The notes under the pieces were generated by a model, which made no database searches, was not told where the DNA came from, and saw nothing but the letters and a program-made list of their open reading frames with translations. The translations under genes and the position numbers were made by a program. Source: Staphylococcus warneri (GTDB lineage Bacteria; Bacillota; Bacilli; Staphylococcales; Staphylococcaceae). From it: a DNA stretch of 64,000 nt. This document shows, in pieces, positions 16,005 to 60,887 of this stretch. The stretch covers positions 1,612,001 to 1,676,000 of the forward strand of contig NZ_LR134269.1 in the NCBI RefSeq assembly GCF_900636385.1. The letters run 5' to 3'. The number at the start of each line of letters is the position of its first letter. Within the stretch, counting starts at the first letter, position 1.

Positions 16005-16078
16005 GTCCTGGTAGCTCAGCTGGATAGAGCAATGGCCTTCTAAGCCATCGGTCGGGGGTTCGAATCCCTCCCAGGACG
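16005..16078 (+). tRNA. tRNA-Arg (anticodon UCU)
   Basis: 74 nt cloverleaf: acceptor GTCCTGG/CCAGGAC, D arm GCTC/GAGC, anticodon arm ATGGC-CTTCTAA-GCCAT with TCT anticodon, T arm GGGGG-TTCGAAT-CCCTC, discriminator G, no encoded CCA. Its 3' end is the prophage insertion site; the gene stays intact because the phage supplies the same 3' bases. Confidence 0.97.
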
Positions 16079-16085
16079 CTAATAA
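16064..16085 (+). other. Prophage attachment site attL (22-bp core)
   Basis: The 22 bases from 16064 are identical to 60866-60887. The core covers the 3' side of the T stem, the acceptor strand and seven bases beyond the tRNA. Flanking bases differ immediately on both sides. Confidence 0.93.
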
Positions 16086-17626: not shown

Positions 17627-17694
17627 CTTGCCAGTGTCTCCCAAGCGAAATCCAAAGGACTTGTTGGTACCCATTTACATTTTAACAAAAAAAT

Positions 17695-17717
17695 AGGACA
17701 GCCGAAAGGGCTGCCCT
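17695..17717. terminator. Terminator hairpin (array member 6, duplicated module)
   Basis: AGGGCAGCC pairs with GGCTGTCCT (minus strand, one G-U), five-base loop, T-rich on both sides. It is the downstream part of the left copy of a duplicated lysin-tail module. Confidence 0.8.
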
Positions 17718-17741
17718 AAAAAGAGAAAAAATATGAATATA

Positions 17742-17945
17742 AAATATCTTATAACTAAACTGGATTGAAATCCATAAATAGCATAACATATTATTTCCAC
17801 TTAACGAAACCACATTACTATTTTTTACACAAAAAAAGAGGTAGTCCCCACGACTACCTCTGAATAGAGAAAAAAGTAACTATCTAAAACATCTTATAAC
17901 TAAACTGGATTGAAATCCATGTATATAATGTAACATATTATTTCC
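17742..17945 (-). repeat. Tandem duplication of endolysin 3' end plus terminator
   Basis: The segment TCTTATAACTAAACTGGATT and the following bases occur at about 17747 and 17892, 145 bases apart. Similarity continues into the last codons of the endolysin: the left copy still reads Lys-Trp-Lys-stop. Downstream each copy carries TTTTTTCTCT and its own strong hairpin. The left copy is a decayed remnant. The region 17140-17937 contains no convincing protein gene. Confidence 0.7.
17837..17861. terminator. Terminator of the lysis operon (array member 7)
   Basis: AGAGGTAGTC/GACTACCTCT, ten perfect pairs with a five-base loop and seven T on the minus strand. It is the first terminator past the endolysin stop. 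Confidence 0.88.
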
Positions 17946-18405
17946 ACTTAATGGAACCCCAATACTTCTCTTTTTTAATTCTTTCTTGCTTATCCGTTAT
18001 CTTACATAATGCACAGTAGAAATAACCTGATGATGGATTAGTAGGATATTTGAATTTCGCCCACCAATAGCCATCTTTTTTAGTAATGCTGACAAAGTCT
18101 ACCCATTGATTTGATAATAACCAATCAGAACTTGGAACTACAGAACCTTTCAAGCTTGGACTACGTCTTACTTTGATTGTTGTATTAGTAGTAAATCTGC
18201 CTTTCCAATTCCATGTGATCTGCTTTTCTTTCTTTTTCTCTTTTGATTTCTTGAGTAATTTAGATTCTGCTTTCTTGTTACTAAATTTAGGACGTACAAA
18301 CCACATTTGTGTGTCGTATTCGTGTTTACGACGTGTGACCGTTTCCCAACCAGTTCCATTATTGATTGGTCCACTTGTCCAACCACCACCTAGCCAGTTT
18401 TGTTC
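17938..18405 (-). CDS. Endolysin, exon 2 (end of CHAP plus SH3b domain)
   Basis: 155 residues after splicing, beginning EQNWLGGGWTSGP, which completes the CHAP domain. A Lys-rich linker (KLLKKSKEKKKEK) and a bacterial SH3b cell-wall binding domain (KGRFTTNTTIKVRRSPSLKG to the end) follow. Read alone the frame starts only at MWFVRPKF (18306), but 33 in-frame codons upstream match the expected lysin sequence, up to the predicted 3' splice site after G at 18406. Joined to exon 1 it gives a 470-residue lysin in frame. Confidence 0.88.
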   Translation of the reverse strand, partial: EQNWLGGGWTSGPINNGTGWETVTRRKHEYDTQMWFVRPKFSNKKAESKLLKKSKEKKKEKQITWNWKGRFTTNTTIKVRRSPSLKGSVVPSSDWLLSNQWVDFVSITKKDGYWWAKFKYPTNPSSGYFYCALCKITDKQERIKKEKYWGSIKWK

Positions 18406-19349
18406 CTTATATTTTCTTGTTAAGTCGCTAATTTAACAACGTTCTCTTATGAACTGCTATATATTTCTATATAGAAAAGACTATATCATCAACCTAGCAG
18501 GTTGCCTCCCGTTTCCATACGCTTGAATGTACTCTACTCACTTCCACTAAAAAAACACTCGTATGAGTGTCTAGTGTGTTTTCGATAGTCGTTGCACGTT
18601 CTCATATCATTACCATATGAGCTTCGCTCATGATTGCCCTCGACTTTACGTTAGGGGTTCCCATGAATTAGAGAGGTTTGCTATGATAATTACTTATCAA
18701 AGGCTCCGTTTTAATTTTTGCAGTTCTCTGTATGCTTCTTGCGGGGTGTTAAAAGAATTTGTTCGATAATTCTTTTTATTATTTTGAAATCTACCATAAT
18801 ACTTATTATAATATCTTCTAACCCCTGGAAAACCAGTAGAATTTTTAAAACCATTTCTATTTAACATATTCTCTCTATGATTTACCCACCTACAATTTTC
18901 TGGTGAATAACCTTTAGAATTGTCGATTCTATCAAGTTCTAAACCTTCTTCAAAAGAATCTTCCATATCTTCAAGAAAGTTCTCAAAAGAATTTATCCAT
19001 CTCTCACATACATGGATACCTTTTCCTCCATAGTAATTATATCTTTGGTTTTTTGGGTTATGACATCTTTCAATCATTTTTTTGTACCTATGATACAATC
19101 TGTGATCTACTTGTTGGTGACCACATTTTCTTCTACCGTTATGATACCAACTATATAAATTTCCTACGTGTTTCTTTCCACATATGTGACAATAAAATAT
19201 TCCTTGTGGCTTTCCTTTAATAGGTTCAATTAAAGTATATACACCCTTTTTAACACCAATCATATTTCTAATCCCCATATCTAAACCCCCGTATAATTAA
19301 TTTACTTTAATTATACCAATATGGTCGAAGAACCGCAACTTTTTAATCA
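18406..19349 (-). other. Group I intron in the endolysin gene
   Basis: 944 bases. Exon 1 ends in U (codon CTT, 19350) and the intron ends in G (18406), the group I boundary rule. Joining gives DEITVL-EQNWLGGGW in frame. The catalytic core is visible downstream of the internal ORF: GGGCAATCATGAGCGAAG resembles the conserved P element, and CAACGACTAT and GATATAGTC can form P7. The retained intron introduces a TGA at once, so unspliced RNA gives a truncated lysin. Exact boundaries and subgroup (probably IA) are inferred. Confidence 0.87.
18697..19278 (-). CDS. Intron-encoded HNH homing endonuclease
   Basis: 193 residues. A CxxC zinc ribbon (CHICGKK, near residue 30, with CGH later), a central motif YYGGKGIHVCERW, the HNH-like core LELDRIDNSKGYSPENCRWV (about 110-130) and a C-terminal AP2-like DNA-binding segment (GFPGVRRYYNKYYGRF). 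This is the architecture of phage HNH endonucleases that cut intron-less alleles at the insertion site. It lies wholly inside the intron, 71 bases from its 5' end, leaving the 3' catalytic core intact. Confidence 0.92.
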   Translation of the reverse strand: MGIRNMIGVKKGVYTLIEPIKGKPQGIFYCHICGKKHVGNLYSWYHNGRRKCGHQQVDHRLYHRYKKMIERCHNPKNQRYNYYGGKGIHVCERWINSFENFLEDMEDSFEEGLELDRIDNSKGYSPENCRWVNHRENMLNRNGFKNSTGFPGVRRYYNKYYGRFQNNKKNYRTNSFNTPQEAYRELQKLKRSL

Positions 19350-20294
19350 AAGCACTGTAATCTCGTCGAGTGTAGCCTCAACGACCCAAGCTACATGACC
19401 CCAACCATCGCCCATTTGTTCTCCCCAAACGACTAAATCGCCTGGTTTAGCTAAAAAACTAGGTGTGTTTTTATATACTGTAGCCTCTTTTTTAAACTTA
19501 TCTTTATTATAAGCATTAAAAGGAATGTCTTTCGCTCCATTACCTTTAAGTCCATGATCAAATAATTTATCCCAACCTACATTTGCGTAATCGACACATT
19601 GAAAAGCTGCGTACAAGTCATAATCGTATTGCTTACCTTCTGTAGATTTTAACCATTTTACGAATTCATCACGTGTAAATGATGTCGAGCCTTTTTCTAC
19701 TTTCACTGGTGTAGCTTTAACTTTTACGTTTTGTTTGTAGTATTTAGCTACTAACTTATCAAGATTTGATGTATTTCTACCATATCCCGACGCCTCTAAT
19801 GCATTGCCTGGATCTTGTTTATCAGCTTGAATATCTTGATGTCCTGGCATTCTAGTTTTGTAATCAATATGCCAATACTCTGCAAGATATGCTAATACTC
19901 TAGCGCCGTTATCTAATGCTTTTCTACTACGTTCTCTATCACTGAAATAACATATTTCAACACCTATCGCTACATCGTTAGCGTCTTTGTTGTACCAAAT
20001 GTTATCTGTAGGCGCGTCATAAAGCACGTGCCAAGCTTTCTCTGTTGTTGGTATACAAATGATACATTCTTTATCGTCAACGAATATATGAGCGCTAGCT
20101 ACGTTATTCCAAGGTATATTATAAGTGTTTTCATAATAGGTCACATTCGATTGAGCAGTTGTATTAATATTACCAGTATCATGTGCAACGATGAATTGTG
20201 GTTTTCCACCATCCATTGTTTCGCCATATCGGCGCGTTCCTTTTGTTAGTAATTGATATCTTACTTTAACACCTTTCCAATTCTCTGTAGCCAT
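19350..20294 (-). CDS. Endolysin, exon 1 (amidase plus CHAP domains)
   Basis: 315 codons from the ATG at 20292-20294, which has a GGAGTG site. Residues about 30-190 form an Amidase_2 domain (zinc ligands in IVAHDTG and [15 protein letters not shown]). Residues about 210-315 form most of a CHAP peptidase, with Cys in [11 protein letters not shown] and His in [11 protein letters not shown]. The domain order amidase-CHAP-SH3b differs from the common CHAP-amidase-SH3b staphylococcal lysins. Without splicing it stops at TGA (19347-19349) lacking the wall-binding domain. It lies directly after the holin. Confidence 0.9.
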
Positions 20295-60865: not shown

Positions 60866-60887
60866 ATCCCTCCCAGGACGCTAATAA
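60866..60887 (+). other. Prophage attachment site attR (22-bp core)
   Basis: Identical to 16064-16085. It carries the original 3' end of tRNA-Arg, now separated from the gene body by the prophage. Confidence 0.93.

Follow-up and report, generated by a model that had tools for sequence, protein, structure and literature searches.

Introns in phage lysin genes are well known, and Foley reportedly described one of group I in 2000, in lysins of Streptococcus thermophilus phages. The S. thermophilus phage TP-EW carries a lysin intron with a homing endonuclease ORF, as does the locus analysed here in a different host genus, and many sequence differences are reported near the TP-EW insertion site (PMC3952083). 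Among staphylococcal phages, the LysK intron is a well-described case (PMC5618024, PMC7698491), and Oliveira et al. 2019, who name IME1367_01 among the phages compared, report an endolysin group I intron in 20 of 205 (PMC6507118). For fRuSau02, LC-MS/MS peptides are reported from both halves of the lysin, and the authors call the case for a single chain not conclusive (PMC5618024). The lysK/I-KsaI intron of Kayvirus (phage K) resembles ours in placing an HNH endonuclease gene within a lysin but, on our reading of the frames, is inserted in the amidase part, after AWHTG. Identity of the present intron with that of lysK was considered and rejected: the site is another, the HNH protein gave no significant match (best tblastn E 3.1), and core similarity was confined to 57 bases at 82%. 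A search with the Rfam group I intron model, RF00028, of a 12 kb piece of phage K that includes most of lysK reported nothing at E <= 0.001.

Two further phages stand nearer to our locus. IME1367_01 (KY653124) possesses the same gene and intron, at 98.6% identity over 2357 bases and 99.9% within the intron, in a record whose annotation shows just two amidase fragments and a hypothetical protein; a literature search in which most candidates were judged by title found no paper titled on this phage. The endolysin of Silviavirus CF5 (PP034390) shares with our locus the CHAP codon boundary VL^EQNW, the guide GAGC and a homologous intron, whose endonuclease is 55.6% identical over 93%, but the lysin is a different one, a second intron lies in its amidase part, and no T-run hairpin is found at the matching place. 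That second intron (L012 3719-3998) is also of group I and lies close to where the lysK intron of phage K is inserted.

The window, by which we mean the whole 64,000-nucleotide stretch of Staphylococcus warneri DNA that was analysed, contains the 22-base attP-R of IME1367_01 twice (16064-16085 and 60866-60887, minus strand), and a prophage is thus taken to span about 16.06-60.89 kb. The first copy overlaps the 3' end of a tRNA gene (16005-16078), and the phages closest to the prophage come from S. warneri. Judged from sequence, a mobile group I intron with an HNH-family gene very probably interrupts the endolysin gene of this prophage, splices out of its transcript and homes into empty lysins. 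It is a well-supported instance of a type of mobile element that was known before. The gene and its insert are arranged as follows.

19350-20294, minus strand: lysin exon 1, with Amidase_2 at residues 29-164 (Pfam PF01510, E 1.7e-19) and most of CHAP at residues 225-309 (PF05257, E 5.6e-9)
18406-19349, minus strand: group I intron of 944 nt, with G18406 as its last base (omega G); matched by RF00028, exactly absent from phage G30, with 99.9% identical copies in IME1367_01 and IMG/VR contig L018
17938-18405, minus strand: lysin exon 2, with the end of CHAP (EQNW...), SH3b_P2 (Pfam PF25606, E 9.5e-45) and the stop codon; uninterrupted in G30 and IMG/VR relatives

Exon 1 matches PHROG endolysins, and its frame closes immediately on entering the insert, whose first in-frame codon is TGA (19349-19347). 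Exon 2 begins EQNWLGGGW, 33 codons ahead of the ATG (18306) of the visible SH3b ORF; the EQN of this EQNW we take to hold the catalytic Glu and Asn of CHAP. The transcript would fold, be cut after U19350 and after G18406, and have its exons joined, yielding a 470-residue lysin of the order Amidase_2-CHAP-SH3b. The first-pass annotation, made from the sequence alone, had proposed just such an interrupted endolysin, and its boundaries prove right to the base by protein frame, by alignment to phage vB_G30_01 and by P1 pairing. Its placing of the exon 1 stop inside CHAP, and of 33 in-frame codons that continue the domain, is confirmed by the reading frames, while the 470 residues it predicted on joining U19350 to G18405 are also the length of the natural vB_G30_01 lysin. 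Its account of the unspliced product as an enzyme without the wall-binding domain is correct for SH3b and otherwise incomplete, as the EQNW end of CHAP would be lost too and Amidase_2 kept whole. A lysin annotated as two broken pieces is in that case probably one working gene, appearing in two pieces because the intron interrupts it.

Comparison with uninterrupted lysins, which the first-pass annotation had also suggested, locates the empty site. S. warneri phage vB_G30_01 (G30; PP213047) has a lysin of 1413 nt and 470 aa that aligns with exon 1 (945 nt, 23 mismatches) and exon 2 (468 nt, 16 mismatches), and no base is gained or lost at U19350/G18405; the site is empty at the exact junction. 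Eleven IMG/VR loci were found with exon 1, ten uninterrupted and one with the intron. With exon 2, 199 loci were found, and the CHAP frame is open across the junction in 79 of the 80 examined, the 80th being the intron copy. The two collections overlap: 11 of the 80 exon-2 loci (L115-L125) are the same contigs as the exon-1 loci, and the occupied contig appears as both L018 and L099.

These counts bear on an idea from the first-pass annotation, that splicing sets the timing or dosage of lysis, unspliced RNA giving a 315-residue amidase with an incomplete CHAP and spliced RNA the full enzyme. A frame that ends as soon as the intron is entered, with Amidase_2 complete in exon 1, would suit such a switch, and a switch role has been proposed for phage introns in other genes (PMC11878797). 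According to a review, many group I introns have an in-frame stop after the upstream exon, seen as perhaps assisting RNA folding (PMC3984707). We consider control of lysis quite improbable, however, since lysis does not need an intron that 79 of 80 examined relatives do without, and since a scattered, apparently recent spread fits a selfish element.

The distribution of the intron bears on its proposed mobility. Apart from the window it was found in IME1367_01 (L002) and in one IMG/VR contig (L018/L099), and the three occupied loci differ pairwise at 1, 1 and 0 of 944 intron bases versus 31, 34 and 37 of 1413 exon bases (Fisher p 1.8e-6, 5.6e-7 and 5.5e-9); near-identical introns thus reside in more diverged lysins. 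Of 1413 exon positions, six (-15, -13, -10, -8, -7 and -4) show fixed differences between the three occupied lysins and ten empty ones (G30, L098 and L100-L107; L108, more diverged and with gaps, was excluded), a clustering with p 3.5e-12 if sites are taken as independent. Position -4 is A in 10 of 10 empty and G in 3 of 3 occupied lysins, and this G pairs with the C of the guide.

19353-19364, minus strand: exon 1 tract from -15 to -4 holding the six fixed differences from empty lysins, likely a coconversion footprint (occupied/empty comparison)

Coconversion during homing, in which repair would copy the intron and some flanking exon into cut lysin genes, is the simplest reading of this pattern, and selection for P1 pairing could add to the flank differences. 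An exact-pattern scan of viral contigs for a donor of the tract found none, its two matches being the known copy and an unrelated gene, and the nearest virus record gave only a weak intron match of 40.5 bits, under the cut-off of 50. With occupied and empty sites, a sharp footprint and a covarying P1, the locus is a clean natural system in which to test intron homing among temperate phages of staphylococci.

Elements of the predicted ribozyme, and a terminator-like hairpin, were located within the intron and at its upstream border.

18457-18723, minus strand: ribozyme core, spanned by RF00028 over its whole length
18586-18590, minus strand: 5' strand of P7, GACTA (RF00028 match and sequence)
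18479-18483, minus strand: 3' strand of P7, TAGTC (RF00028 match and sequence)
19350-19353, minus strand: 5' strand of P1, GCUU, formed by the last four bases of exon 1, in which U19350 faces G (P1 pairing table)
18703-18706, minus strand: internal guide sequence GAGC, within the last endonuclease codons AAA CGG AGC CTT, K-R-S-L (sequence and pairing at 15 loci)
18553-18572, minus strand: terminator-like hairpin and T run, between the 5' strand of P7 and the 3' strand of P3 (terminator/hairpin scan)

A covariance search of the whole window, likewise anticipated in the earlier reading, returned RF00028 at 18723-18457 on the minus strand, covering model positions 1-253 of 253, catalytic core P3-P8 included, at 97.9 bits (E 4.4e-24; cut-off 50 bits). 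The boundary bases and P7 strands recognized beforehand in the 944-base insert are accounted for by U19350, G18406 and GACTA/TAGTC.

With the guide taken from the homologous position directly ahead of the core, exon bases -1 to -4 are paired at 60 of 60 positions across 15 loci, compared with 21-36 of 60 when the register is slid by 1-3 bases, and the pairing extends over four exon/guide sequence types (GCUU/GAGC, GUCU/GGAC, GCGU/GCGC and CCGU/GCGG). A U.G pair occupies the splice site in 15 of 15 loci, the splice sites of 11 having been set partly by pairing. For four loci (the window, IME1367_01, L018 and CF5) the 5' splice site was first set by protein frame; in L019 and L197-L206 (11 of the 15) frame and pairing were used jointly, which makes the P1 test partly circular for those. 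The rows are also not independent, for the window, L002 and L018 represent one intron, L201-L203 and L206 are close to one another, and so are L197 and L198. Read with these limits, P1 covariation supports a predicted 5' splice site at U19350. In the window, P1 is limited to four base pairs with the exon (-1 to -4), and at -5 U and C are mismatched. When the region near the core was scanned blindly for the longest pairing, the chosen register came first in L019 only, other registers beating it in the window (runs of 7 versus 6) and in CF5 (8 versus 5), where the winners either lack U.G at the splice site or are located elsewhere. Inspection of P10 (exon 2 with the guide) by eye disclosed no convincing pairing.

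A rival reading is a decayed, non-splicing insert, which would leave the lysin effectively broken and the prophage either unable to lyse its host or dependent on the exon 1 amidase, which lacks the wall-binding part. Decay would accord with the division of the gene into two pieces in the IME1367_01 annotation, and splicing is itself predicted from sequence. Against it stand the full-length RF00028 match, a P1 that is both paired and covarying, three almost identical intron copies in diverged lysins, and the nearly all silent divergence of exon 2 from G30 (dN 0.003, dS 0.19), though much of this divergence is possibly older than the intron. We hold decay to be highly improbable and favour an intron that splices.

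The guide falls within the last codons of the endonuclease, K-x-(S/D/R)-L, in the window, CF5 (L012), L019 and L197-L206, so that one stretch would serve both as code and as guide, and the next-to-last residue (S, D or R) varies together with the exon sequence paired. Some intron ORFs are reported in a review to reach into the core (PMC3984707). A narrow literature search for guide, P1 loop and homing endonuclease in a group I intron found no paper combining them, which is weak evidence of absence. Of 14 related introns whose core is visible, 13 (all but CF5) have a T run of at least five bases beside a hairpin. A promoter scan gave no excess over shuffles (12 found versus a mean of 13.2).

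The remainder of the intron is largely occupied by the endonuclease gene.

18697-19278, minus strand: HNH-family endonuclease gene (193 aa), lying after the 5' splice site and running with its final codons into the start of the core match (phrog_374, E 5.7e-54)
19286-19290, minus strand: GGGGG, 7 bases ahead of the endonuclease ATG, a possible ribosome-binding site (sequence)

Assignment to the HNH class rests on PHROGs (best E 5.7e-54). Pfam returned no family, HNH or AP2, even at E <= 10, and of the HNH/AP2 label originally given only the HNH half is retained. Homologues number 2295 proteins at E <= 1e-3, and among the 120 listed, 6 have a precomputed Pfam AP2 (PF00847) assignment. P0001-P0029 were inspected for their ends and 15 of these aligned; across 18 aligned endonucleases the residues C30, C33, W44, G48, C52, H59, D116, R117, N120, Y124, N128, C129 and W131 are invariant. 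By the NG86 method, dN 0.35 and dS 1.44 were obtained versus CF5, and dN 0.38 and dS 1.90 versus L019; the resulting dN/dS of about 0.25 and 0.20 therefore indicates purifying selection, though dS is saturated. A search of solved structures yielded no credible relative (best E 0.54, an isopentenyltransferase), and a scan of a genome collection added 7 distant relatives, which were left out of the comparisons.

The HNH-family protein would be expected to nick or cleave lysin genes that lack the intron, acting where CHAP encodes (E/D)QNW. It might alternatively owe its retention to damage done to the lysins of co-infecting phages without the intron, a form of interference competition reported for an intron HNH enzyme of phage PhiPA3 (PMC11620839). 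Empty target lysins are indeed common among the relatives examined, but interference needs co-infection by a near relative, which prophage immunity would presumably limit, and this explanation seems rather doubtful to us. Homing remains our preferred account.

Homologous introns in other hydrolases extend the comparison; from two IMG/VR sets of 80 loci each, L018-L019 and L197-L206 were the relatives studied. In L019 the interrupted gene is another lysin, split within the L codon that precedes DQNW, and RF00028 scores 89.2 bits there. L197-L206 carry related introns with endonucleases 49-56% identical to that of the window, and RF00028 is correctly placed in nine of the ten, L199 ending ahead of the core; in those nine, exon 2 starts at DQNW. 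Relatives of the L200 exon in phage records (25 listed of 404) comprise 8 named tail associated cell-wall hydrolase, 4 named cell wall hydrolase and 13 called amidase, lysin or other names or left unnamed. At IMG/VR loci with this exon (80 examined of 320), DQNW is uninterrupted in 78, and the two with the intron are the contigs of L200 and L204.

Taken together, these observations could be drawn into one broader scheme, which we offer tentatively and think unlikely to hold in full: the lineage would invade (E/D)QNW codons of CHAP in endolysins and tail-associated hydrolases, its guide would lie inside its own endonuclease codons with the next-to-last residue (S, D or R) tracking the exon, and a terminator-like hairpin in the ribozyme could set termination against transcription of exon 2.

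Several minor observations were made along the way. Near 2421-2440 in L197, L198, L199, L200 and L204, unspliced read-through would give VECNW and then a stop within a few codons, mimicking the VDQNW of uninterrupted relatives; this is absent in L201-L203, L205, L206 and the window, and could reflect selection or shared descent. The record OR842880, named Xanthomonas phage SU1, is 93.7% identical to 8% of the searched prophage stretch and has a 99% match to the L200 hydrolase piece, and given this similarity to staphylococcal phage sequences its name or host may be wrong. Finally, two stretches at and after the end of the lysin (17680-17819 and 17823-17966) each match the other's counterpart in IME1367_01 (L002) at 79%, which suggests a local duplication.
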